IMG/VR virus record: IMGVR_UViG_3300033981_000257
Span: 1 to 25,811 of that record
Length of the DNA stretch: 25,811 nucleotides
Source: a virus
Direction: 5' to 3' (one strand)
Shown here: positions 2,284-22,398 of the stretch, in pieces
How positions within the stretch are numbered: the first letter of the stretch is position 1
Layout of the letters: each line of letters opens with the position of its first letter
Program-made: the position numbers and the translations under genes
The notes under the pieces: model-generated
The model's input: only the letters and a program-made list of their open reading frames with translations
What the model was told of the DNA's origin: nothing
The model's database searches: none

Positions 2284-2378
2284 TTAGTTACGAAGAGTGG
2301 ATGTTCCTCGCGAAGCTGCTCGGCTTCTTCGCGGTGGTGGTGGCGATCTACGCGGTGATCCATCCGGAGGAGTGGTGA
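2280..2378 (+). CDS. Small membrane peptide
   Basis: This 32-codon gene starts with GTG at 2280 (GTGA overlap with the previous stop). The peptide has a charged start (ISYEEWM), one hydrophobic helix (FLAKLLGFFAVVVAIYAVI) and the end HPEEW. A single membrane segment is clear. It is too short to assign to a family. Its stop at 2376-2378 overlaps the GTG start of the methyltransferase in the same way. This double overlap, filling what would otherwise be an unexplained 90-base gap, is the main evidence that it is translated. Confidence 0.6.
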   Translation: MISYEEWMFLAKLLGFFAVVVAIYAVIHPEEW

Positions 2379-3550
2379 GATACCTCTCCGTATGCAGCGG
2401 CATCGAAGCCGCTACCGTCGCATGGCACCACATGGGATGGCAGCCGGTCGCCTTCAGCGACATTGAGCCTTTCCCGTCTGCCGTGCTGGCCCATCATTAT
2501 CCACACGTCCCTAACCTTGGCGACATGACCAAATTTGAGGAGTGGAATCTTGAATCAGTTGACCTTCTTGTCGGAGGAACCCCTTGCCAGTCATTTAGCG
2601 TCGCAGGACTGCGCAAAGGACTCGCCGACCCACGCGGCAACCTCATGCTTACCTTTCTTGCGATCGCTCAACGTCAGCGGCCTCGATGGATTGTCTGGGA
2701 AAACGTCCCCGGCGTCTTGTCGAGTAACGGCGGACGGGATTTTGGAACCTTCCTCGGGGCGCTGGGGGAGCTGGGGTATGGGTTCGCATACCGAGTGCTG
2801 GACGCTCAATGGTTCGGAGTGGCCCAACGACGTCGCCGTGTGTTCGTTGTCGGATGTGTTGGAGACTGGCAGCGTCCCGCAGAGGTTCTTTTTAAGCGCG
2901 AAAGCGTGCGCCGGGATACTGCGCCGAGCAGAGAGGCGAGGCAAGAAACTGCCAAGTGCATTAAAGCAGGCGTTGGAAAGCGTTTCAACTTTGAAACCGA
3001 AACCCTCCCTATAGCCTTTCACAACCGCCAAGACCCGGTGTCATCCGAGGATGCGACCAATGCTCTCGGTGCGAAAGACAACGGGCTTGGCGTGTTGGCA
3101 TTCTCTGCAAAGGATTACGGAGCAGATGCTTCAAGCATTGCGCCAACCCTGCGAGCAATGGGACATGACGATAGTCACGCCAATGGCGGCGGGCAAGTGG
3201 CTGTCGCGCAGACTGCCATGCAAGTGCGTCGCCTCACGCCCGTCGAGCAATCAGTAGGGTTTTACTCAAACCTTGGCTCTCAAGGTGGCGGGTTTGGTAT
3301 CAATGGTTCGCCAACTTTAAAAGCAGCGACAAGTAACAATCTAGCGGCTGTGGCGACCGCTATGCAAGTGCGCCGCCTCACGCCGGTAGAGTGCGAGCGT
3401 CTGCAAGGTTTTCCCGACAACTACACCAACATCCCGTGGCGCAAGGCCGCAGAAAGCCCAGACGGGCCTCGCTACAAGGCGCTAGGGAATAGCATGGCCG
3501 TGCCGGTCATGCGTTGGATCGGCGAGCGGATCAACAAGGTGAACACATGA
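2375..3550 (+). CDS. Orphan C5-cytosine DNA methyltransferase (Dcm-like)
   Basis: This 391-residue enzyme transfers methyl from S-adenosylmethionine to cytosine C5 in DNA. The GTG start at 2375 gives the usual N-terminus (RYLSVCSGIEAAT, motif I). It has GGAGG at 2366-2370 and a 4-base overlap with the previous stop; a longer start further upstream is not needed. Visible motifs are GGTPCQSFS (motif IV, catalytic Cys71), WENVPG (VI, 108-113), AQRRRRVFVVG (VIII, 150-160) and YKALGNSMAVPV (X, G371). The target-recognition region (about 190-335) is long, and MQVRRLTPVE occurs twice, at residues 282 and 330. No restriction endonuclease is nearby. It is probably an orphan phage enzyme that protects phage DNA from host restriction or marks it. 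The ATGA at its end starts the next gene. Confidence 0.95.
   Translation: MRYLSVCSGIEAATVAWHHMGWQPVAFSDIEPFPSAVLAHHYPHVPNLGDMTKFEEWNLESVDLLVGGTPCQSFSVAGLRKGLADPRGNLMLTFLAIAQRQRPRWIVWENVPGVLSSNGGRDFGTFLGALGELGYGFAYRVLDAQWFGVAQRRRRVFVVGCVGDWQRPAEVLFKRESVRRDTAPSREARQETAKCIKAGVGKRFNFETETLPIAFHNRQDPVSSEDATNALGAKDNGLGVLAFSAKDYGADASSIAPTLRAMGHDDSHANGGGQVAVAQTAMQVRRLTPVEQSVGFYSNLGSQGGGFGINGSPTLKAATSNNLAAVATAMQVRRLTPVECERLQGFPDNYTNIPWRKAAESPDGPRYKALGNSMAVPVMRWIGERINKVNT
3218..3391 (+). repeat. Direct repeat inside the methyltransferase gene
   Basis: Bases 3218-3247 and 3362-3391 encode the identical decapeptide MQVRRLTPVE. The DNA copies differ at 3 of 30 bases, all third codon positions, and lie 144 bases (48 codons) apart. 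The preceding stretches are also related (PTLRA then PTLKA, GGGQVAVAQTA then NNLAAVATA). A whole segment was therefore probably duplicated. Confidence 0.8.
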
Positions 3551-5926: not shown

Positions 5927-6105
5927 AGCCAAACGCATACAAGATCTTGCAGCGTTGCATCGACGACGGCATCGCCTATGGGATGCGGCGTGCGTTCAAG
6001 CACACAGAGTCGCCGACGCGTGAAGAGATCGGGCTGCACATAGAGCGTGCGATCACCACCGAGATATGCGAATGGTTCGAGTTTGACGAAGTGAAGGAAG
6101 ACTAA
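5923..6105 (+). CDS. Small hypothetical phage protein
   Basis: This 60-residue protein starts with GTG at 5923, overlapping the DUF3310 stop (GTGA), with GGAGG at 5914-5918 just upstream. It contains YKILQRCIDDGIAYGMRRAF and ends in an acidic segment (ICEWFEFDEVKED). The spacing of helices resembles small conserved proteins found next to DUF3310 genes in other phages. No function is assigned. Confidence 0.7.
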   Translation: MKPNAYKILQRCIDDGIAYGMRRAFKHTESPTREEIGLHIERAITTEICEWFEFDEVKED

Positions 6106-6171
6106 CCCTAGAGACCAAGCCGCGTGGATCAGCTACGGAGCGCCGGCCCCGTCGCGGCAGCCGGACCTAAC

Positions 6172-6477
6172 ATGACCACCATCGACACAGAGAGCCCGCC
6201 CAGGGCGTGGTTGGAGGAGTGGATCGCCGGTGCGCGCAGCCGAGAGGATCTGCGGCTCTTCATCATGGAGCAGCAGAATCGGCTAGATGCCTACGTGCGC
6301 CAGATCGAGAAGATGGATCAAGAGCGCGCCGAGGTCGTGCGCTGGCAAATTGAATCGGCTCACAACGAGATGATCCTGCGCGGGCTACTCGAGCGGTACA
6401 AGTCTGCGCTGGAGGCGATCGCCAAGTTTGGCGGCCCGGCGTCTGACTTTGCCTCGACCGCGCTGCGCGCTCAATAA
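6172..6477 (+). CDS. Coiled-coil hypothetical protein, last early gene
   Basis: This 101-residue protein begins MTTIDTESPPRAWLEEWIAG and is mostly helical. A long charged stretch (residues about 28-80, with LFIMEQQNRLDAYVRQIEKM) could form a coiled coil. ATG at 6172 is preferred because the GTG at 6124 adds a Gly/Ala-rich extension with no clear Shine-Dalgarno, but neither start has a good ribosome site. Its last 7 bases overlap the end of the convergent pyruvyl transferase gene. No family is recognised. Confidence 0.6.
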   Translation: MTTIDTESPPRAWLEEWIAGARSREDLRLFIMEQQNRLDAYVRQIEKMDQERAEVVRWQIESAHNEMILRGLLERYKSALEAIAKFGGPASDFASTALRAQ

Positions 6478-6526
6478 AACGGAAACGCGCCGGACAGGGC
6501 CGAGAGGTCGACCCTGTTGCCGGCGC
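6471..6526 (-). terminator. Terminator-like stem-loop at the end of the late operon
   Basis: GCGCCGGACAGGG (6487-6499) pairs with CCCTGT plus CCGGCGC (6512-6526) around a 12-base loop, with a 2-base bulge. On the minus strand the stem is followed by GTTTCCGTTTTATTGA, a T-rich tail that includes the stop codon of the pyruvyl transferase gene. It lies where the two operons meet, so it may also slow rightward transcription, although no T-run follows in that direction. Confidence 0.5.
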
Positions 6527-7211
6527 CGTGAAACCGTGGCGCGTCGCTCAATGAAGACATGATAAACGGCGCACGGTTTTGGCTCGCGAAGTAATCCATG
6601 AACTTGAGCGTGCCCTCGGCGAGCGGGCGATATAGCCACGCGTTGGGGACGCCGTAGGCGTCCGCCACGATGAGCCCGTGCAGCGACTGGCTCACGATGG
6701 CGCTGCAGCTCACGAGCTCGTCGATGATTTCCTCGACCGGGCGTAGCGGACTGATGAAGTGGAACCCGCAGTGCTGCGGGCCACGCTTGACGTCCGAGCA
6801 GTGCGGGATAAATCCAACCTTGCAGGCAAGCTCCGGCTTGAGGCGCGGGGTGTAGAGCCGCGGCAGCAGCAGCGCCGGGTCTCCGTAGACGTCTGGGCAC
6901 TTGATGCCTCTAGAGCGCAAGAATGATCGAGTGATCGGGCCACGCACGGCGTGCACGCGTAGCGTGTTGTAACAGTGCGTTGCATCTTCCTCGTTTGGCG
7001 GGTCGGTCCGCAGCCCGGTGCCCCAAATATGCGCGCCCTCGGTGGCGTGGTGCAACCACGACCCGACCGCAAACAGCGTGGCGTCGCCTTGGTCGCTGTT
7101 GTGCAGCAGCTTGTGTCCCTTGCCCAGCAAGCGCCCGACGATGTACGGAGACAGCGCGTCGCCGAAGTTCATCTGGTCGCCGAAGGTCCAATAGCGAAGG
7201 TTGACGATCAC
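6471..7211 (-). CDS. Polysaccharide pyruvyl transferase family protein
   Basis: This 246-residue protein has the signatures of the polysaccharide pyruvyl transferase family (CsaB/ExoV-like, GT-B-like fold). They are NFGDALSP (15-22), IWGTGL (62-67), VRGPITRSFL (89-98), VYGDPALLLPRLY (108-120), VGFIPHCSD (132-140), and SQSLHGLIVADAYGVPNAW (174-192). Family members move pyruvate from phosphoenolpyruvate to sugars of exopolysaccharide or cell-wall glycans. In a phage, likely targets are host surface glycan (exclusion of rivals) or virion glycan; neither is shown. The start is GTG at 7211, a 4-base overlap with the upstream phosphoesterase gene. It is the last gene of the late operon, a usual place for accessory cargo. 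Confidence 0.85.
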   Translation of the reverse strand: MIVNLRYWTFGDQMNFGDALSPYIVGRLLGKGHKLLHNSDQGDATLFAVGSWLHHATEGAHIWGTGLRTDPPNEEDATHCYNTLRVHAVRGPITRSFLRSRGIKCPDVYGDPALLLPRLYTPRLKPELACKVGFIPHCSDVKRGPQHCGFHFISPLRPVEEIIDELVSCSAIVSQSLHGLIVADAYGVPNAWLYRPLAEGTLKFMDYFASQNRAPFIMSSLSDAPRFHGAGNRVDLSALSGAFPFY

Positions 7212-7951
7212 CCGTATTTTCTCTTCAAGTAATCCATGCGCAGCGGCATTAGATCATAGTCGCCGCGCCGGACACCGTTCAGCACTACGATCCCGTTCCA
7301 CTCTGACCGCTGAACATCGTCGGGGCGATAGCCCTCGTGCTCAAGGTAAAACCGCCCAGCGACTAGGCCGTGCTTGACGTGGTCGGGGTACTGCTTGCTC
7401 GCGTACAGAAAGCCCTGCTGGTGGCCCTGCACGAATGACTTGCCGATGCTGTTTAGTCTATTGACGATGGTGCCGCCGATCGGCTTGCCGCTGAACGGGT
7501 TCGGGAAGTAATGGCAATAAGCCACCCCGTCGATCTCGACGATCTTGAGGAAGCGGTGCCGCTCCCAGTCGAGCGTCTGGCAATTCTGCGACCCGATAAT
7601 GCCCTGCCACTTTGGGTCGTTCTTGGCGATACGGTTGGCGCGGTTCTCGTGGTTGCCCTCAAGGAAGACCCGCCGCGGGTGCCACGTCTTGCTGCGCGAC
7701 CGCTTGATGTAATTGTCAAGTATCCGAAAGGATACATTTCCGGCGTTGATATCTTCCTGGTACCTCGCGCCCTCGAGCTCTGCGCTGCCCTTTTCGGCGT
7801 GGCTGTTGAGCGACGGCAAGTCCCACCAATCTCCCAGGCACACGATCACGTCGGGGCGATAGTCGAGGATCGCCTCGCCGGCCCACTTGACATGATCTGT
7901 GCGGCTCCCCGGCTTGATCTGCGCGTCGGGAATGATGAGGTGGCGCCTCAT
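7208..7951 (-). CDS. Calcineurin-like metallophosphoesterase
   Basis: This 247-residue protein has metallophosphoesterase motifs in order: IPDAQIKPG (D9; Gln11 takes the place of the usual His in DxH), CLGDWWDLPS (G40, D41, D44), LEGNHENR (N100, H101, E102), and FVQGHQQG near residue 176. The family binds two metal ions and hydrolyses phosphate mono- or diesters in nucleotides, nucleic acids or proteins. Phage members with DxQ at the first site form a recognisable subgroup, but their substrate is unknown. ATG at 7951 overlaps the upstream stop (ATGA). Coupling to the pyruvyl transferase suggests the two are made together. Confidence 0.85.
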   Translation of the reverse strand: MRRHLIIPDAQIKPGSRTDHVKWAGEAILDYRPDVIVCLGDWWDLPSLNSHAEKGSAELEGARYQEDINAGNVSFRILDNYIKRSRSKTWHPRRVFLEGNHENRANRIAKNDPKWQGIIGSQNCQTLDWERHRFLKIVEIDGVAYCHYFPNPFSGKPIGGTIVNRLNSIGKSFVQGHQQGFLYASKQYPDHVKHGLVAGRFYLEHEGYRPDDVQRSEWNGIVVLNGVRRGDYDLMPLRMDYLKRKYG

Positions 7952-8250
7952 TCCATCGTGGTCATGGCTTGCTGCAGTAGGTGCCCGAGGCGGTCGACGA
8001 GCTGTTCATTGCGGGACAGGTCATCGTGCCCCGCCACGTCGAGCAGGGCGTGAATCAACTCGTGGGTGAAGACCTGCTGGCGGTTGCTGCCGCGCAGGCT
8101 GGAGACTATCTCGATGCGGTACACGTCCGGCATCCAGATCCCGACGCAATCCTTGCCGTGCTTCCACTTGGACTTGGGGACCGACCGCACCTCGATCGTG
8201 TGACCCGCCAGTTGGAACTTTTTGGGTATGCCGTCGGTGCGCGGCTTCAC
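7948..8250 (-). CDS. Mini zinc metallopeptidase-like protein (HExxH)
   Basis: This 100-residue protein contains VFTHELIHALLDVAG, with the zinc motif H63-E64-L-I-H67, and a downstream acidic residue at NEQLVDRLGHLL (E82) that could be the third ligand, as in gluzincins. It resembles very small ImmA/IrrE- or SprT-like phage proteins. The substrate is unknown; with lysis genes upstream and glycan/phosphate enzymes downstream it could act on host protein or wall peptide. The GTG start at 8250 overlaps the lysozyme stop (GTGA). No signal peptide is seen, so it probably acts in the cytoplasm. Confidence 0.7.
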   Translation of the reverse strand: MKPRTDGIPKKFQLAGHTIEVRSVPKSKWKHGKDCVGIWMPDVYRIEIVSSLRGSNRQQVFTHELIHALLDVAGHDDLSRNEQLVDRLGHLLQQAMTTME

Positions 8251-8711
8251 GGCAGGAGGCCCGCTTCTGCCTTGCGGCGGCGCACGAGGCCCGGCAGCTC
8301 TCGCCCGCCTGCCTTGGTCCAGCGCATGAGCTGCTGTCGTGCTCCCCCCCAGTCCTCGGCCTCGAGTCGCTTGCGCAACGTGCTTGCCCTATACCGTGAG
8401 ACGCCGAGATTGTAAGCAAAATCAATCGCCGCCGCCAACACCTTTGGGTGCTTTATGAGGTTTGGGCTGGATCTCAACACCCCGGCGCCATAATTTGAGC
8501 GCAGCTCGGACAACAGCCACGCCTCCGCCTGCTCGCGGGATATCGGTGGATCATCCATTGATACGCGGGCGCCGTCGGGCTTGAAGACGGTCCCGTAGCC
8601 GATGGTCGGGTATCCCGCCGGGCAGATGTAGGGCCGGCTGCGGAATCCCTCGAAGTGCTTGCAGAGCGCCGCCGCGACCGTTAATGCTTCCTCAAGAGCG
8701 GGTGCGTTCAT
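8247..8711 (-). CDS. Endolysin, GH24 lysozyme (E-8-C-5-T type)
   Basis: This 154-residue muramidase is of the phage lysozyme family. The catalytic segment reads FEGFRSRPYIC then PAGYPTIGYG, giving Glu21, Cys30 and Thr36 with spacings of 8 and 5 residues. Cys replaces the Asp of T4 lysozyme, as in the P21-type enzymes. Later AAAIDFAYNLGV and LMRWTKAGGRELPGLVRRR are typical of the helical lobe. It should cut peptidoglycan between MurNAc and GlcNAc. There is no N-terminal signal-anchor, so it probably needs the holin just upstream for release. ATG at 8711 is preferred to a TTG at 8726; the gene overlaps the holin gene by 20 bases. Confidence 0.9.
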   Translation of the reverse strand: MNAPALEEALTVAAALCKHFEGFRSRPYICPAGYPTIGYGTVFKPDGARVSMDDPPISREQAEAWLLSELRSNYGAGVLRSSPNLIKHPKVLAAAIDFAYNLGVSRYRASTLRKRLEAEDWGGARQQLMRWTKAGGRELPGLVRRRKAEAGLLP

Positions 8712-9162
8712 AGACGCGGCCAACAAACCAAAACGAGAGGATCATATTCAGCACCGCCATGTCGTCGACCGACCACATGGTGGTGATGACAGACTTCCAC
8801 TCTCCGCCCTGCTCGAGCGCGATCAAGTACCCGGCCACCTTCACGAGCGCATAGGCCACCACGAAGAGGTACGTCACGAAGGGCCGCACCAGCGCGGAGA
8901 TCGCCGCGACGACCTTGCCGGCGGCCTGCGCCGTGGCGCTTTGCTCTTTGAATGCCTCGCCGATAGCGTCGACCTCGGCCATCGTCATCTGCGCCTCGGT
9001 CTGACGCATAGCGATCTCGCCCTTTACCTGGGCGAACTTCATCTCGGCTTCGAGCATTCGCAGCTCGTGACCGCGCTCGTTCTTGGCATCAAAGAACTTG
9101 AGCACCTCTGGCGCCAGTCGCAGCACGCCACCGAATACGCCACCAAGGAGTGTCTCAAGCAT
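8692..9162 (-). CDS. Holin, 3-TM (GTA-type) family
   Basis: This 156-residue protein fits the 3-TM holin family also found in gene-transfer agents. A short hydrophobic N-terminus (MLETLLGGVFGGVLRLAPEV) is followed by a charged helical stretch (about 25-80) and then hydrophobic segments at about 91-116 (RPFVTYLFVVAYALVKVAGY) and 137-151 (VLNMILSFWFVGRVY). It should form membrane lesions that let the lysozyme reach the wall. It lies directly before the lysozyme gene and after a small TM gene, a normal lysis cassette. The start has Shine-Dalgarno AAGGTGA upstream. Confidence 0.8.
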   Translation of the reverse strand: MLETLLGGVFGGVLRLAPEVLKFFDAKNERGHELRMLEAEMKFAQVKGEIAMRQTEAQMTMAEVDAIGEAFKEQSATAQAAGKVVAAISALVRPFVTYLFVVAYALVKVAGYLIALEQGGEWKSVITTMWSVDDMAVLNMILSFWFVGRVYERTRS

Positions 9163-9163
9163 G

Positions 9164-9313
9164 TCACTTCACCTTGTTAATTAGGTCAAAGAGCGACTTC
9201 ACCTTTTCCTCGAGCACCGCCACGCGCAGGTCGAGCTTCGAGAGCACAATAATCAACGTGATGACGGCAAGGATCACCGGCCACGCTCTGGTAAATATCT
9301 CGAAGAGGTCCAT
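9164..9313 (-). CDS. Small membrane/coiled-coil lysis-region protein
   Basis: This 49-residue protein begins MDLFEIFTRAWPVILAVITL. It has one N-terminal membrane helix (about 10-25) and a charged heptad-like C-terminus (KLDLRVAVLEEKVKSLFDLI). ATG at 9313 lies three bases after the previous stop, and an AGAGAGGTGA ribosome site precedes it. It ends one base before the holin start. The layout resembles an inner-membrane spanin subunit or a holin regulator, but it is shorter than typical Rz proteins. No outer-membrane partner gene was found. Confidence 0.65.
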   Translation of the reverse strand: MDLFEIFTRAWPVILAVITLIIVLSKLDLRVAVLEEKVKSLFDLINKVK

Positions 9314-9316
9314 GCG

Positions 9317-11245
9317 TCACCTCTCTTCTTGAGTGGATAACAACCCCGGCAGCCGCCCGCCAAACTGGACCGAGCCCATCTTCTTTGCGGCGCGTGTCGC
9401 GGCGTCCTGCATCAGCTTTCTGTCTTCAATGTCGAGCCTGTCGAGTACGGCCATCTGCTGCTGCGGGTCCATCTGCGTGAGCATGCGCGCCATGTCCTCT
9501 CGCACCGCCGGCGTCAAGCCACGGAGCCGGCCGCCAGCGATGTTGAGCAGCGTCATAAATCGCGACGCGTTATTGCCCATCGCAAACTGCGTGATCTGCT
9601 CGGTGCGCGCCAGCTGGTCGACGCCAGCGCCACCGGCCGCCATCCTGCGCGCCGTGTCTGGTCCTATGTTCGGGTTGATCTTGCGGGCAAACTCCTGCAG
9701 GCGGCGCTCTTGCTTGATACGAAGCGCGGCCTGCGCGGCCTGCTCCGGCGTCTCTGCGATGAACTCAAGAAAGTCTCTGTTTTGCTTGCTCGAGACAAGG
9801 GCACGCGCCATGCCTGCGTCGTCCATGCGGGCGAGGTTGTTATAGAAAGCGTCTCGTGCGGTGTCACGCACAATGCCCTGCTGGTCTGGGCTCAATGCGC
9901 GGAGCGCGACCTTGCGATCAGACTCGGACATTGCGCTGAATTTTTGGCCAAGCTCCGATAGCCGTATCAGCTCGGAGTCCTCAAAGAACCGAGCACGCGC
10001 CGCGGCATACTCTGGCACCAACGTCTTGACGCGTGTATCGAGCTGGTCAAAGAGCGCCTTGATACCAGAGGCGTTCACGTCTCCGGCGCGGAATGCCTGG
10101 TCTCGCTTTGCGCCGACTGCACGCATGAGGTAATCCAGCGCGGCCACCGACGGGTAAGCGTTTTGGATTAGGTTCCCCTGTTTATCGACAAGGTCCGGCA
10201 ACTTAATTTTCTCTTGCCGCTGCGCGTTGACCTGCGCCTTTTTATAGAGCGCACGAAGCAACGGGTCGCCGACGATCGTGTTGACGATCTCATCGTCTTG
10301 CACGATCCCGACCGCACGAGCGTCGCCATATAACTGCGTGGCGTTCGCGTTGCGCATGTCCTTGAACTTTTTGAGGACGTCCTGCGTAAACTGACGGTTT
10401 CCGCCGGTCATCTCGTTGACTACCTGCATCACGCGGGCGCCAGAGCCGCCGAGGACATCTTCTGATACCGCACGCGTTACGTCCGCGGCCTGTCCGCCGC
10501 CGAGAGCGGCGCGCTCCGCGGCCATCTGCCCAGACTGGCCCATCATCATCCCGAGCGGGTTGAGCTCGCCGGGTCTCCCCGAGAGGATCTGCTGCCGCAG
10601 CTGGTCCGTCGTCATGCCAGCCTCGCGCATCGCGCCGAGCACCTCCTGCGAGGCAACACGCGGCTCGTCTGGACTGAATGCCCTGCCCATGACAGACCGT
10701 GCGCCACGCGCAAAGTCCATCGCCGCGCCAAAGGCGGGCCCGGTGACCGCGCCGGTTGCGCCGCCCGTGATTGCGCCAGAGGCGCGGCTCCCAGGCTGCG
10801 CCTCGAGGCCGCCCTGCACAGCGCCCGTCGTGCCGCCGATACCGGCCTGCGTCAAGAGACGCCCGCCAGCGCCGGTGACCGAGGTCAGCTTGCCAAACGG
10901 GTTGGGCGACGCCAGCGCGCCGGCAAACTCCGAGGCTGCGTAGGTGAACGGGTTGGCGCGCCGCATGGCCTCACGCTCCGCGGCCTGTTGCTGCATGCTC
11001 TGGCCGTAGGGCATGACCCCAGCGCCAGATTCGATCGCCGCGATGGCCTCGTCGGCGCCGCCATACGTGAGCCCCTGCCCAAAGCCGCGGATCGCGGTCT
11101 GGAGCATCCCAGGCGCCTCCGGCTCTTGAGGCTGGCTCGTGACGCGGGGCATCTTTTGCTGCCTCACGCGCTCAATCACCTCCGGCTTGGTCCCCTCTGG
11201 GAATACCGCGGTCGTGCCGTCTGGCATTGCTACCTTGATGCTCAT
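9317..11245 (-). CDS. Large virion protein, probable internal/ejection protein
   Basis: This 642-residue protein begins MSIKVAMPDGTTAVFPEGT then KPEVIERVRQQ, a start found on many large podovirus structural proteins. A Gly/Ala-rich region (about 50-170, with GFGQGLTYGGADEAIAAIES and ITGGATGAVTGPAFGAAMDF) may interact with membrane, and the rest is helical and charged. Position among the last virion genes, just before the lysis cassette, fits an internal (ejected) protein that helps DNA cross the envelope. No lytic transglycosylase motif is visible. Shine-Dalgarno GAGGGGAT supports ATG at 11245. Confidence 0.65.
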   Translation of the reverse strand: MSIKVAMPDGTTAVFPEGTKPEVIERVRQQKMPRVTSQPQEPEAPGMLQTAIRGFGQGLTYGGADEAIAAIESGAGVMPYGQSMQQQAAEREAMRRANPFTYAASEFAGALASPNPFGKLTSVTGAGGRLLTQAGIGGTTGAVQGGLEAQPGSRASGAITGGATGAVTGPAFGAAMDFARGARSVMGRAFSPDEPRVASQEVLGAMREAGMTTDQLRQQILSGRPGELNPLGMMMGQSGQMAAERAALGGGQAADVTRAVSEDVLGGSGARVMQVVNEMTGGNRQFTQDVLKKFKDMRNANATQLYGDARAVGIVQDDEIVNTIVGDPLLRALYKKAQVNAQRQEKIKLPDLVDKQGNLIQNAYPSVAALDYLMRAVGAKRDQAFRAGDVNASGIKALFDQLDTRVKTLVPEYAAARARFFEDSELIRLSELGQKFSAMSESDRKVALRALSPDQQGIVRDTARDAFYNNLARMDDAGMARALVSSKQNRDFLEFIAETPEQAAQAALRIKQERRLQEFARKINPNIGPDTARRMAAGGAGVDQLARTEQITQFAMGNNASRFMTLLNIAGGRLRGLTPAVREDMARMLTQMDPQQQMAVLDRLDIEDRKLMQDAATRAAKKMGSVQFGGRLPGLLSTQEER

Positions 11246-12458: not shown

Positions 12459-12734
12459 TCAATCTCCCAAGAGGCCGCCGCGTACCTTGCGACCGCCATA
12501 CATGCTGTACATGCCGCCATAGTATTTGTTCGGGTCATAGACTGGCGCGCCGCCCTTCCCTTGCGCTGCCTTTCCGAGGAACGACGCCAGGTCTTCCTCT
12601 TCGCCGCCCTCTGCGCCCATGCCAGAAAGCTGCCCAAGAATATCCATTAAGCCGCCCTTCTTTTTCTTTGCCATCTCGCGCAGCAGCGGATTGGTCTCCG
12701 CGCTGAACACCGTAGGCCCGCCAGAGACTTGCAT
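12459..12734 (-). CDS. Small hypothetical virion-region protein
   Basis: This 91-residue protein has a basic patch (MAKKKKGGLMDILGQLSG), an acidic patch (AEGGEEEDLASFLGK) and a Gly/Tyr-rich end (NKYYGGMYSMYGGRKVRGGL). The ATG at 12734 overlaps the stop of the large repeat-fibre gene by one base (TAATG), so translation is likely coupled. No family is recognised. Neighbours suggest a virion or assembly role. Confidence 0.65.
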   Translation of the reverse strand: MQVSGGPTVFSAETNPLLREMAKKKKGGLMDILGQLSGMGAEGGEEEDLASFLGKAAQGKGGAPVYDPNKYYGGMYSMYGGRKVRGGLLGD

Positions 12735-15283
12735 TATTTCTTCCCCTTGCGCTTCTTGCCTTCCACCTTGGCGTCGAGCTCTTTGACGGCCTCCGTCAAG
12801 AGCCCGACCACCCGCGGGAAGTCGACCATCATCTTGCCGTTGTCGGCGTACTCCACGGCCTCGGGCATCTCGTCCTCCACGTCCTGCGCGGAGACGCTCA
12901 TGCTCTTGCCATCTGGCTTCTGGCCATTCTCTTCAACGTCGTCCTTGTACTCGTCCTCCCACTCGAACTCGATCCCCTTGAGTCGGTTGACCTTGTCGAG
13001 CGGGTTCTTGATCTTGGAGACGTTCTTCTTCATGGTCTCGTCGGAGAACCCGGCGATCGTGCTGCCGATCTGTCCGGCCATCTGCCAGTAACTCGGGCGG
13101 CTCGTGACGGTCCCCGTCTGGGTCACGTTGTACGGGCTCGCCGCGATGGCACCCTGCCGGATCGCGAGCTGCTGCAGCGGGTAGTTCTGCTGGCGAGAGA
13201 ATTCCTGGTACTGCCGGTCGAGGTACTGCTGCATCAAGTTCTGCTGCGCAGACCCGAGGCCGGTCATGGCCGCCGCAGCGCCGTATCGGTTCTGGAGCGC
13301 AGTCTGCCCAAAGTCGCCGAGCTGCGCCGCCGCGCCAAGCCGGAACTGCGCCGCCTGCTGGCCCGCGCCTTGGTTGGCGAGCGCCGCACGCATGGCCTGC
13401 TCCGCGTTGAACTGCTGCGACGTCATGCCCATCTCTTGCGCACGCTGCCGCGCCGCTTGGTTGGCGAGCGCGATCTGCTGGAGCTGCTGCGCGTTGAACT
13501 GCTGCTGCCCCTGCGTCATCTGCTGGCCCTGCAGCCGCGCCGCTTGGTTGAGCCGCGCCGCCTCGAGCGCCTGCTGGACGTTGAACTGGCCGGCCTGTAG
13601 CCCAAGCTGCTGCCCCGTCTGGGCGGCCTGCTGGTTCGCCAGAGCCGCCCGCAGCGCTGCCTCTTGGTTGGCCTGCCCAGCCGTGAGGCCCATTCGCTGC
13701 GCCTCGAGGGCGGCCTGCTGGTTGGCCTGCTCTGCGGTCAAGCCGAGGCGCTGGGCCTCCTGGCGCGCCTGCTGGTTGGCCAGCTCCGCACGGAGCTGCT
13801 GCTCGACGTTGAACTGACCCGTCTGCGTGCCGAGCTGTTGCCCCTGCAATCGCGCCTGCAAGTTGGCGCGCTCGGCCTCGAGCATCGCCGCTTGGTTCGC
13901 TCTGGCCTCCTCCGCCGTGAGCTGCGCGCCGGTAATGTCTCGGGCTTGGTTGAGGCGCTGCGCCTCCAGCATCGCCCGCTGATTCGCCTCCTCGGCGGTC
14001 ATGCCGAGCTGCGCGGCCTGCTGTTGCGCCTGCTGGTTCGCCAGCGCGGCTCGCACCTGCTGCTCCACGTTGAACTGGCCAGCGGTGAGGCCAAGCTGTT
14101 GCGCCTGTTGCTGGGCGGCTTGGTTCGCGAGCGCGGCGCGCATCTGTGCGTCCACGTTCGCCTGCCCCGCCGTGAGCCCAAGCTGCTGCAGCCGAATGTC
14201 GCGCTCTTGGTTGCTGATCTGGCCCGCCTGCGCGAGCTGCATCACATTCTGCACCGCCTGCTGGTTCGCGAGCGCCGCCTGCTGCTGGCGCCCCACGTCG
14301 GCCTCGCGCAGACCCGCGGCCTCGCGGAAGCCCTGCGCACGCTGCTCCGCCACGAAGCGGTTCCGCTCACGCGCCGCTTCGCCCGCGGCGATGCCCTCCT
14401 CAATCGCCGCACGCGAGCCGCCAAAGGCGCGGGCCGCGGTGGCGCGTGCCGAGCGGCCGGCGCGGGCCTGCTCCTCGGCGCGAGAGATATCAGCGAGGCC
14501 AGCCTCAACCACGGCCTGCTGGTACGGGTTTTGGTAACGCGCAAGGTCTTGGTCCAAGAAAGAGGCACCCTGCACCGTCGGCGCCGCACCCGGCGCGCCG
14601 ATGTCACGCGCCGCAAACTGCGTCCCGATCTGCCCCGCGCCTACGGTCGGCGCAGCGAACTGCGTCGCGACCTGCCCGGCAGAGACCGGTCCGGCTGCGC
14701 CAGGCGCCGCGATGCGCCCGGCGGCGATCTCTCGCGCCGTGAAGGGCGTCGCGATCTGCTGGGCGCCAATCTCGCGCACCGCGGCGGGGCCACCCGCCAC
14801 GCCTGCGCCCGCCGTTGGCGCCGCAAACTGCGTCGCCACGCCGGGGGCACCAAACTGTGTCGCCATGCGCTCGGCACCGACGCGCTCCGGCGCAAACTCC
14901 GTCCCGACCTGCCCGGCGCCCACGGTGTCAACTGTGGTACCCGGTATCACAGTGGCAGCCTGCGCCGTCGGGGCGCGGAACCGCTGCTGCGTCGTCGGCG
15001 CAAAGACACGCTCGGGCTGGAAGCCGAGGTCGCGCTGCACCTGCCGCGAGGCGAGGTCCAACTCTGGGACGAATCCACGCTCTCTCGCAATCGCCCGCGT
15101 CATCTGCTCGCCGCGCATGTAGTCCTGCGTGAAGGGCGCCGTCAGCAGCCCTTGGTAGGGAGTGAACGGCACCGAGGCGAGCTGGTTCGCCAGCTCGATG
15201 TTAGAGAGGACGCTTGCGTAGACGGCCGGATCAATCTCGGTCTTCTGCGTCTCGGTCTTCTTGGATTTGAAAAGGTTGCTCAC
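12734..15283 (-). CDS. Giant Ala/Gln-rich fibre protein with C-terminal S74 intramolecular chaperone
   Basis: This 849-residue protein has four parts. Residues 1-120 form a unique head. Residues 121-235 are Gly/Ala/Pro-rich with recurring ATQFAAPT-like segments. Residues 366-644 hold nine 29-residue helical repeats (type QQLGLTAGQFNVEQQ followed by RAALANQ) and one 18-residue partial unit. The end is a peptidase S74 chaperone: FSDETMKKNVSKIKNPLDKV (Ser747, Lys752; same five-residue spacing as in endosialidase), LKGIEFEWEDEY, VSAQDVEDEMPEAV and VGLLTEAVKEL. S74 domains trimerise a fibre, then cut themselves off before the Ser. Mature protein would end near residue 746. It is probably a trimeric, mostly coiled-coil fibre or tail needle. 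The GTG start at 15283 (GTGA overlap) has GGAG upstream. Confidence 0.85.
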   Translation of the reverse strand: MSNLFKSKKTETQKTEIDPAVYASVLSNIELANQLASVPFTPYQGLLTAPFTQDYMRGEQMTRAIARERGFVPELDLASRQVQRDLGFQPERVFAPTTQQRFRAPTAQAATVIPGTTVDTVGAGQVGTEFAPERVGAERMATQFGAPGVATQFAAPTAGAGVAGGPAAVREIGAQQIATPFTAREIAAGRIAAPGAAGPVSAGQVATQFAAPTVGAGQIGTQFAARDIGAPGAAPTVQGASFLDQDLARYQNPYQQAVVEAGLADISRAEEQARAGRSARATAARAFGGSRAAIEEGIAAGEAARERNRFVAEQRAQGFREAAGLREADVGRQQQAALANQQAVQNVMQLAQAGQISNQERDIRLQQLGLTAGQANVDAQMRAALANQAAQQQAQQLGLTAGQFNVEQQVRAALANQQAQQQAAQLGMTAEEANQRAMLEAQRLNQARDITGAQLTAEEARANQAAMLEAERANLQARLQGQQLGTQTGQFNVEQQLRAELANQQARQEAQRLGLTAEQANQQAALEAQRMGLTAGQANQEAALRAALANQQAAQTGQQLGLQAGQFNVQQALEAARLNQAARLQGQQMTQGQQQFNAQQLQQIALANQAARQRAQEMGMTSQQFNAEQAMRAALANQGAGQQAAQFRLGAAAQLGDFGQTALQNRYGAAAAMTGLGSAQQNLMQQYLDRQYQEFSRQQNYPLQQLAIRQGAIAASPYNVTQTGTVTSRPSYWQMAGQIGSTIAGFSDETMKKNVSKIKNPLDKVNRLKGIEFEWEDEYKDDVEENGQKPDGKSMSVSAQDVEDEMPEAVEYADNGKMMVDFPRVVGLLTEAVKELDAKVEGKKRKGKK
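13352..14188 (-). repeat. Nine 29-codon (87 bp) repeats plus an 18-codon partial unit
   Basis: In protein numbering the full units start at residues 366, 395, 424, 453, 482, 529, 558, 587 and 616. The partial unit is 511-528. The consensus is roughly QQLGLTAGQFN-x(5)-RAALANQ-x(6). The repeats are coding and diverged at DNA level. The 18-residue unit lacks exactly 11 residues, which keeps helix phase. Confidence 0.85.
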
Positions 15284-20809: not shown

Positions 20810-21438
20810 GGGATCACCCTCGTCGGTTTGACGGTCATGGCGGTGCGGCCTTGACTAAAGGCGGCCCGCTCGTTTTGCAACATCAACTCTTCCATCGCGG
20901 ACTGGTACAAGCCTGCCCAGACAGAGATGCGCTCGTCGTCGCGCAGGTACGGAGACGCCTGCAAGAGCGCGCCGTACAGATACACGTCGGGGTGGCGCTC
21001 GAGCACCCAGTTGGATGCGTTGCTGTCGGAGAGCTTGGCGAGCGTCGCCACGTAGGTCAGCTCCGCCGTGTAGCCGGTGTCCGGCGCCGGGAGCACCTCG
21101 ACCTGGTTGCCGATCAGCGAGAAATACTGCGGCTTGCCGGTGGTGCGATAGATCCACTTCTTGGCGTCGAGCTCGTCCTCGGTCAAGAACACGAGCGGCT
21201 GCACCGGCGCGGTGCTGGTGAGCACCAAAGACTTGAGCGAAAGAAAATCAGACGGCAGCGCCGAAAACGGCGTATCGATGGTGGCGTTTGATCGCTTGAC
21301 CATCTTCTGCGTCGGCAGCCGGCGCTCCATCTGCGCCTCGGCGAGCGAGATAAAGTCGGGGATTACCGACGTTAAATCGTCGCGGTTCAGCCAGTCGGCG
21401 ACGCTAGACTTGAGTGCTGTGTATGAGGTCAGAGCCAC
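20806..21438 (-). CDS. Head-tail adaptor protein
   Basis: This 210-residue protein begins MALTSYTALKSSVADWLNRD, followed by IPDFISLAEAQMERRLPTQK and ALPSDFLSLKSLVL. That opening is characteristic of the podovirus adaptor family (SU10 adaptor/T7 gp11/P22 gp4-like). The C-terminal part has LERHPDVYLYGALLQASPYL and GLYQSAMEELML, also typical. It should form the ring joining portal and tail. GTG at 21438 has AAGGAG just upstream; the gene overlaps the glycosyltransferase gene by 35 bases. Confidence 0.8.
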   Translation of the reverse strand: MALTSYTALKSSVADWLNRDDLTSVIPDFISLAEAQMERRLPTQKMVKRSNATIDTPFSALPSDFLSLKSLVLTSTAPVQPLVFLTEDELDAKKWIYRTTGKPQYFSLIGNQVEVLPAPDTGYTAELTYVATLAKLSDSNASNWVLERHPDVYLYGALLQASPYLRDDERISVWAGLYQSAMEELMLQNERAAFSQGRTAMTVKPTRVIP

Positions 21439-22081
21439 CGTTCACTTGCTCCTTGATCGCCCAGGCACCCTCGTGCGAATACTCGAAGGTGCCGATGTGT
21501 TTGACGTGCTGCGATAGGTCGTGGTCCAGTAACACCTCAAAGCCGGCCTCTTTTGCCTTCTTGCAAAAGAAAACGTCCTCGCCGATGTAGTGGTTGCCGA
21601 CCGTCGAGTACGGGATCGCAAACCACGGCGCCTCAACCTTCTCGAACACCTCGCGCTTCGTCATCATCACGCCCATGCCGACATAGTCGACGGGCTCCAG
21701 CCCCTCGGACTCTGGGCCGGTGTATACGCGGTCAATCTGCCCCTTCCCCATGTCTCGCATCGCCACCGGCTTGACCGGCATGCGACGCGTCGCATAGTTG
21801 GCGGCCACGATGGGCTTGTCGCGCAAGATGAGATGCCCGATGGTTTCCTTCGGGAACCGCATGTCAGAGTCAAGCCAGAGGAGATAGTCCGCCTTCTCAT
21901 CTAGTGCTTGACGCGCAAGCTCCATCCTTTGAGAGGCGATTAGAGTCCCGTGGCTCGTGAAGAGAAGCACACGGTCGTCTGTCGTCGCTGTGTGATAACT
22001 CATCGCCCGCGCCATGTCGTACGCAAACGAGGTCATCACCGTGTCGCGGGCCGGGACCAATATGGCGACTGATCTGCTCAT
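21404..22081 (-). CDS. GT-A type glycosyltransferase (family 2-like)
   Basis: This 225-residue protein begins MSRSVAILVPARDTV. It has the ALDEKADYLLWLDSDM segment with DSD at 71-73 (metal/nucleotide-sugar motif), VGMGVMMTKREVFEKV (134-149), IGEDVFFCKKAKEAGF (166-181) with GED at 167-169, and HDLSQHVKHIG. This is the pattern of small GT-A enzymes that many phages carry. The acceptor is unknown: virion protein, DNA or host glycan. ATG at 22081 overlaps the previous stop (ATGA); a longer start would lie inside that gene. It sits in the head-gene cluster, so it is made together with capsid and adaptor. Confidence 0.8.
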   Translation of the reverse strand: MSRSVAILVPARDTVMTSFAYDMARAMSYHTATTDDRVLLFTSHGTLIASQRMELARQALDEKADYLLWLDSDMRFPKETIGHLILRDKPIVAANYATRRMPVKPVAMRDMGKGQIDRVYTGPESEGLEPVDYVGMGVMMTKREVFEKVEAPWFAIPYSTVGNHYIGEDVFFCKKAKEAGFEVLLDHDLSQHVKHIGTFEYSHEGAWAIKEQVNGGSDLIHSTQV

Positions 22082-22398
22082 ACGCGCCCCGGCCGGGTGC
22101 GAAATAACTTGTTGTCCGGCTCGTTGAGCCAGTCCTTCATCCGCTTGGGGTCGTCGATGATCCCCTTTTGCTTGAGCTTGTAGAAGAGCGCCATCGGGAT
22201 CGACGCGACCTTGTTCCACTCGCCCCACCGCGCCCGTTCGTCGGTCGCGGCGTATTGTCTCTTGTTTTGCTCTAAGAGGTCACCGACCTCGAAGACCGTC
22301 TCGATCGTCGCTTCGTCTTTCTCGGCGTCGTAGTGCCACCATTTTGTGGTGCCCGTCGCCGGGTCAAAATCAAACAGTCGCTTTCCGCTCGAGTTCAT
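22078..22398 (-). CDS. Conserved small phage protein after the capsid gene
   Basis: This 106-residue protein has FDFDPATGTTKWWHYDAEKD, a middle AATDERARWGEWNKVASIPM and the end WLNEPDNKLFRTRPGRV. The last part, with dNxxFRTRpG, is a recurring phage pattern near capsid genes; function is unknown. ATG at 22398 has GAGGG upstream, directly beyond the stem-loop at 22408-22447, so the loop could affect how well this gene is expressed compared with the capsid gene. Confidence 0.7.
   Translation of the reverse strand: MNSSGKRLFDFDPATGTTKWWHYDAEKDEATIETVFEVGDLLEQNKRQYAATDERARWGEWNKVASIPMALFYKLKQKGIIDDPKRMKDWLNEPDNKLFRTRPGRV

Follow-up and report, generated by a model that had tools for sequence, protein, structure and literature searches.

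We found that a gene of the polysaccharide pyruvyl transferase family recurs as inserted cargo at one junction in two phage lineages, immediately behind a metallophosphoesterase gene that normally closes the late genes in a large group of ~36-kb freshwater phages. One carrier is the virus analysed here, whose whole 25,811-base IMG/VR virus record forms the window; the other is a diverged virus, L043. The two genes look like neighbours by insertion rather than a dedicated pair, and what had seemed a neat gene pair comes apart as one core gene followed by inserted cargo.

Genomic setting and reality of the junction

The virus has head genes of the SU10 type (major capsid protein, PF17236, E = 3e-97; adaptor, PF24175, E = 1.3e-37). 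Its minus-strand late operon ends with a lysozyme, a protein with an HELIH motif, the phosphoesterase and the transferase, and at the transferase this operon meets a plus-strand operon tail to tail. The endolysin, a phage lysozyme with an unsettled start codon (8247-8726, minus strand; PF00959, E = 6.2e-32; phrog_7), precedes a small protein (7948-8250, minus strand; phrog_1233, E = 8.5e-15; phrog_13742 peptidase, E = 3.6e-6) in which the zincin-like HELIH motif was recognised by reading. This small protein, lying between lysozyme and phosphoesterase in the same operon, is a conserved neighbour in most relatives. The core phosphoesterase gene (7208-7951, minus strand; 247 aa, ATG start; phrog_221) and the optional transferase gene (6471-7211, minus strand; 246 aa, GTG start; PF04230) share four bases, GTGA (7208-7211, minus strand), which contain the stop of the former and the start of the latter. 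The convergent operon closes with an ORF at 6172-6477 on the plus strand, tail to tail with the transferase. In relatives, the position of the phosphoesterase behind the lysozyme and the HELIH protein is conserved. A promoter and terminator scan of positions 6000-9400 was uninformative, with signals near the level of shuffled sequence. Elsewhere in the window, an 849-aa protein (12734-15283, minus strand) combines long repeats rich in Q and A with an S74 chaperone domain at its C terminus (PF13884, E = 1e-9).

The preliminary description had reported two genes overlapping by 4 bases at the end of the late operon, beside lysis genes. We confirmed both as intact minus-strand ORFs, with the transferase last in the operon behind the lysis genes. 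It had also called both proteins full-length by motif; relatives of like size and confident AlphaFold2 models (mean pLDDT 90.5 for the transferase and 90.3 for the phosphoesterase) bear out their length, although some classical motif residues are replaced.

Two other records carry the same junction, L003 with 100% identity over 8,597 bases and L002 with 99.6% identity over 5,208 bases; the diverged L043 also has the transferase at exactly this place behind the phosphoesterase, with an ATGA overlap at the place where the window has GTGA. These records rule out an assembly chimera. In the seven transferase-less relatives displayed, the phosphoesterase stop codon is TAG or TAA. Recent foreign acquisition was not seen in base composition, the transferase having a GC3 of 0.82, where nine other genes that were measured span 0.58-0.91. 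A cytosine methyltransferase gene (2297-3550, plus strand) has a GC3 of 0.58, low relative to its surroundings; it is matched in some relatives and is unmatched, in pieces or located elsewhere in others.

The phosphoesterase is core and the transferase is optional

In a profile search of all six frames, the transferase accompanied the phosphoesterase at 2 of 158 loci (L005, which is the window virus, and L043), a set that includes contig repeats and many fragments, so that absence at one locus is not proof. In the reverse direction, 3 of 72 transferase loci had the phosphoesterase (L002, L003 and L170, all of them the window virus). Among the best 80 phosphoesterase loci, 62 reached a recognised next core gene, with the intervening gap fully seen; the transferase was present in one of these bridged loci (L043) and absent from 61. 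The other 18 were cut short or diverged and included L005. Of 18 related records, 12 of them 34-37 kb long, one had a PF04230 match. On gene order and co-occurrence, with 61 of 62 bridged loci free of the transferase, we rejected a dedicated pair. The linked cargo pair of the preliminary description is not supported, since the phosphoesterase is a core gene that nearly always occurs without the transferase; the co-occurrence in other phages that it proposed to look for extended to one further lineage, L043, where the order is the same, but not to the remaining bridged loci.

A few relatives have other same-strand ORFs behind the phosphoesterase. In L026, an unusually long gap of ~2.5 kb (0-2528 bases after the phosphoesterase) precedes the next core gene; the ORFs in it may represent further cargo at this position.

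In a DNA tree of the phosphoesterase (75 rows, after removal of L005, L052 and L053 as copy or fragments and of L045, L047 and L050 for having fewer than 300 bases downstream), the two transferase carriers stood apart, so that two changes are needed, and L043 grouped with the transferase-less L046 at 100%. By contrast, the transferases of the window virus and L043 were sisters at 99% in a 44-row tree. That tree contained 15 viral rows and 29 of 52 cellular loci (31 were extracted, and L200 and L221 were dropped as fragment or redundant); L002 and L184 were left out as copies. The nearest cellular rows were distant and weakly supported, and we therefore name no donor. The simplest history is insertion at the phosphoesterase junction together with exchange between related phages; a single transferase gain followed by many losses is a possible alternative.

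The gene could also be a passenger that has no selected function and has been kept briefly by chance. Its rarity fits such an origin: among the 18 transferase loci found in IMG/VR by profile, the close ones were only those of the window-virus records and L043. Yet the gene is intact, and its motif residues are conserved across two lineages at 57% identity, with a dN/dS of 0.23 at near-saturated synonymous sites. We consider a passenger unlikely. The late-operon end is a slot at which the same kind of surface-glycan enzyme occurs in two phage lineages.

Family, fold and active site of the transferase

The 246-aa protein matched PF04230 (E = 3.6e-14; 53.8 bits, above the curated cut-off of 25.3), the sole Pfam family matching at E <= 0.01. 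Its score against the CsaB equivalog TIGR03609 was 14.8 bits, below the cut-off of 213.1, and by this measure the protein is not a CsaB. ExoV and WcaK, two further names raised in the preliminary description, we take to be PF04230 polysaccharide pyruvyl transferases. No PHROGs family matched at E <= 0.01, and PDB sequence searches found nothing, whether with the single transferase sequence or with a profile as query.

In an alignment of 32 viral and cellular relatives, hand-picked from the loci found, N15, G17, D18, R90, H137, H178, K203 and D206 were among the invariant columns. The AlphaFold2 model built from this alignment had a pTM of 0.91. Foldseek placed yeast Pvg1p (5ax7) first (E = 1.6e-3, probability 1.00, TM 0.49 by query), and no match reached 1e-3. 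In the VIA fold comparison, Pvg1p scored Z 12.4 (rmsd 4.0 over 212 residues), level with an uncharacterised Klebsiella protein (Z 12.8) and UDP-sugar epimerases.

A comparison by hhalign with six CsaB-family proteins was moderate (probability 71%, E = 3.7e-5). It aligned R90 and H178 with R148 and H308 of the CsaB PEP site, and S176 with the arginine two residues before the active-site histidine (CsaB R306, Pvg1p R337). K203, although invariant in the 32 rows, lies outside the aligned block and is a putative equivalent of CsaB K328 by residue order only. In a study of Paenibacillus alvei CsaB, substitutions R148Q/K or H308A/R left the enzyme inactive, and R306 contacts docked PEP (PMC10435577). 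At the R306/R337 position, all 32 aligned members of the branch have S or A, so that the donor site differs in part from that of the studied enzymes; we read the change as a subfamily difference, a trait of the whole branch. It makes the donor site less certain and leaves the family score unaffected. Judged by alignment, the core of the PEP site is kept, with one contact altered throughout the branch. When active-site loss is assessed by alignment, most positions, R90 and H178 among them, are retained, but the CsaB R306 position is not.

A different donor or acceptor, such as a nucleotide sugar, would make the name pyruvyl transferase wrong. The serine at the R306/R337 position would suit such an enzyme, as would a GT-B fold that epimerases and glycosyltransferases share at like Z scores (12.7 and lower). 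Against this, PF04230 is the only Pfam match and lies over its cut-off, and Pvg1p heads the Foldseek list; we regard another donor or acceptor as doubtful. By family and predicted fold, the protein is probably a polysaccharide pyruvyl transferase with a predicted activity. The preliminary claim of a genuine member of this family in a phage is upheld by the same Pfam and Foldseek results.

The phosphoesterase is most likely a separate phosphodiesterase

The phosphoesterase matched phrog_221 over residues 2-244 (E = 3.6e-43). There was no Pfam match at E <= 0.01, and PDB sequence searches returned chance-level matches only. Calcineurin-like metallophosphoesterases classically carry the motifs D-x-H, GDxxD, GNH(D/E), H and GHxH. 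The corresponding motifs here are D9-x-Q11, GDWWD, GNHE, H147 and GHQQ, and D9, Q11, D41, D44, N100, H101, H147, H177 and Q179 were among the invariant columns of 26 viral relatives hand-picked from the loci found. Glutamine occupied both classical histidine positions (Q11 and Q179; DxQ and GHxQ) in all 26 rows, which suggests an altered metal site in phrog_221 phosphoesterases. Mre11 led the Foldseek list for the AlphaFold2 model (E = 6.8e-6), and in VIA Mre11 (Z 15.1) and LpxH (Z 14.6) were tied. The phrog_221 match and this Mre11/LpxH-like predicted fold agree with the earlier identification of a metallophosphoesterase.

Four annotated phage regions, chosen from 493 records matching the phosphoesterase, had the phrog_221 gene near polymerase, exonuclease, endonuclease, thymidylate synthase or ribonucleotide reductase genes. 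In a single comparison, Bxb1 gp47 aligned with the phosphoesterase at 25% identity over 188 residues (E = 4e-7). Figure 4A of PMC12287305 aligns the Bxb1 protein with A10ZJ24 Gp48, which is reported there to act as a phosphodiesterase and to degrade DNA; the D10G variant loses this activity. The phosphoesterase is, most likely, a separate core phosphodiesterase that would act on nucleic acid.

Had the transferase and phosphoesterase instead formed one glycan-modifying function, phosphate would be trimmed or supplied by the phosphoesterase, much as LpxH acts on a glycolipid precursor. The 4-base overlap in two diverged lineages and the tie between LpxH and Mre11 are compatible with such a joint role. 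It is, however, highly improbable, given that the phosphoesterase almost always occurs without its neighbour, that its phrog_221 relatives lie near replication and nucleotide genes in the four regions, and that Bxb1 gp47, aligned with DNA-degrading Gp48 in PMC12287305, is a distant relative. The earlier suggestion that the phosphoesterase could supply or trim phosphate groups is accordingly not supported, its family occurring in replication or nucleotide-metabolism modules in the four annotated regions and the protein being distant kin of a type reported to degrade DNA.

Proposed role of the transferase

We propose, with roughly even confidence, that the transferase is an optional late cargo enzyme that pyruvylates a host surface-glycan precursor and sits behind an unrelated phosphodiesterase. 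Its family, fold, conserved residues, gene order and optional presence rest on the analysis; its timing, substrate, acceptor and benefit we infer. The gene would be a moron behind the last core late-operon gene in two phage lineages. Its position suggests late expression with the lysis genes, and ribosomes probably re-initiate at the GTGA overlap to translate it. The protein, a soluble enzyme of predicted GT-B fold, may take host PEP as donor and attach pyruvate as a ketal to a surface-glycan precursor that the host makes and that is probably lipid-linked. The exported glycan would then be more acidic, and a receptor or the surface charge could change late in infection. The phosphoesterase would play no part in the pyruvylation step. 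The scan of window proteins recognised a glycosyltransferase-like gene in the head operon but nothing further for glycan assembly, and the acceptor is therefore probably host-made. A lipid-linked precursor as acceptor also agrees with the pyruvyl transferases studied so far (PMC6801904).

Loss of the host enzyme CsaB makes Bacillus resistant to some phages (PMC9703825), so that surface-glycan pyruvate can decide phage infection. A glycan change that would affect adhesion or exclude other phages, as put forward in the preliminary description, is plausible. Against a late role, a surface change made so late could hardly take effect before a lytic cycle ends.

The acceptor could alternatively lie on the virion: the head-operon enzyme would add a sugar to a head or tail protein, the transferase would cap it with pyruvate, and the resulting acidic virion glycans would lower sticking to debris or change adsorption. 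The gene concerned (21404-22159, minus strand; start codon unsettled) lies between the major capsid and adaptor genes and matches phrog_1574 (E = 1.5e-24) and the glycosyltransferase family phrog_34859 (E = 3.5e-8); against Pfam Anp1 it scored below the cut-off (E = 4.3e-6), and a DSD motif was read in its sequence. It is matched in 14 of 18 related records (one by a 23-residue edge match), and 558 viral stretches encode relatives of it. This gene is thus common in related phages, a hint of virion glycosylation. However, PF04230 occurred in none of the 14 records that have it, so that the presence of one gene does not follow that of the other; the L043 record does not reach far enough to include head genes. 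Moreover, the pyruvyl transferases studied so far act on lipid-linked precursors and need a lipid-linked acceptor (PMC6801904). A virion acceptor thus appears improbable. Were it nonetheless the true one, which we likewise think improbable, the virus would be a tailed phage with an acidic, pyruvate-capped virion glycan, a phage-borne counterpart of sialylation, gained or lost at one slot. On either reading, a working enzyme would give a ~36-kb phage a single-gene route to alter host or virion surface charge.

Comparison with known systems

The transferase belongs to a known enzyme family, and its setting, though new, is an ordinary one. In a phage collection, 19 of 50,697 records matched it, 15 of them Prevotella (Lak) phages. 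The transferases of Cobetia phage Carin-5, the Lak phages, L004 and other IMG/VR contigs are ~29-38% identical to it and share the same conserved positions where aligned. Unlike in the window, the scanned neighbours of these other transferase genes include glycosyltransferases, epimerases and methyltransferases. The scan covered 77 of 112 neighbour ORFs, omitting several short ones as well as L176 and L182, which resemble L174 and L181, and matches comprised family-2 glycosyltransferases (7), group-1 glycosyltransferases (4), the galactosyltransferase domain (4) and epimerases (2), sets that may overlap. Phage transferases elsewhere tend to lie near glycan genes, whereas that of the window stands alone. 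A six-frame profile search of the other phages' transferase stretches did not find the phosphoesterase. One viral contig, L180, has two transferase-family matches on opposite strands (871-1611, plus; 2651-3283, minus). In the literature consulted on phage-borne polysaccharide pyruvyl transferases, the single case found was an Eggerthella lenta prophage operon (PMC8778435).

Like CsaB, WcfO and Pvg1p, the transferase has PF04230, a predicted GT-B-like fold, the arginine and histidine of the PEP site and an N-terminal NxGD. It differs from them in being short (246 aa), in having S in place of CsaB R306 and in its setting, a small phage where its gene stands by itself and belongs to no recognised glycan cluster.

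The phrog_221 proteins of Pseudomonas, Acinetobacter, Vibrio and other phages are 38-46% identical to the phosphoesterase over nearly its whole length (60 rows among the matches listed), and DxQ and GHxQ are common to it and the aligned phage rows. In the four annotated regions those genes lie in replication or nucleotide-metabolism modules, whereas the phosphoesterase gene of the window is last in the late operon. Aligned through Bxb1 gp47, the residues D10, D41 and H175 tested in Gp48 correspond to D9, D41 and H177 of the phosphoesterase; the mycobacteriophage Gp48/Bxb1 gp47 type is an early-gene product with GHTH, whereas the phosphoesterase of the window is a late-operon protein with GHQQ.
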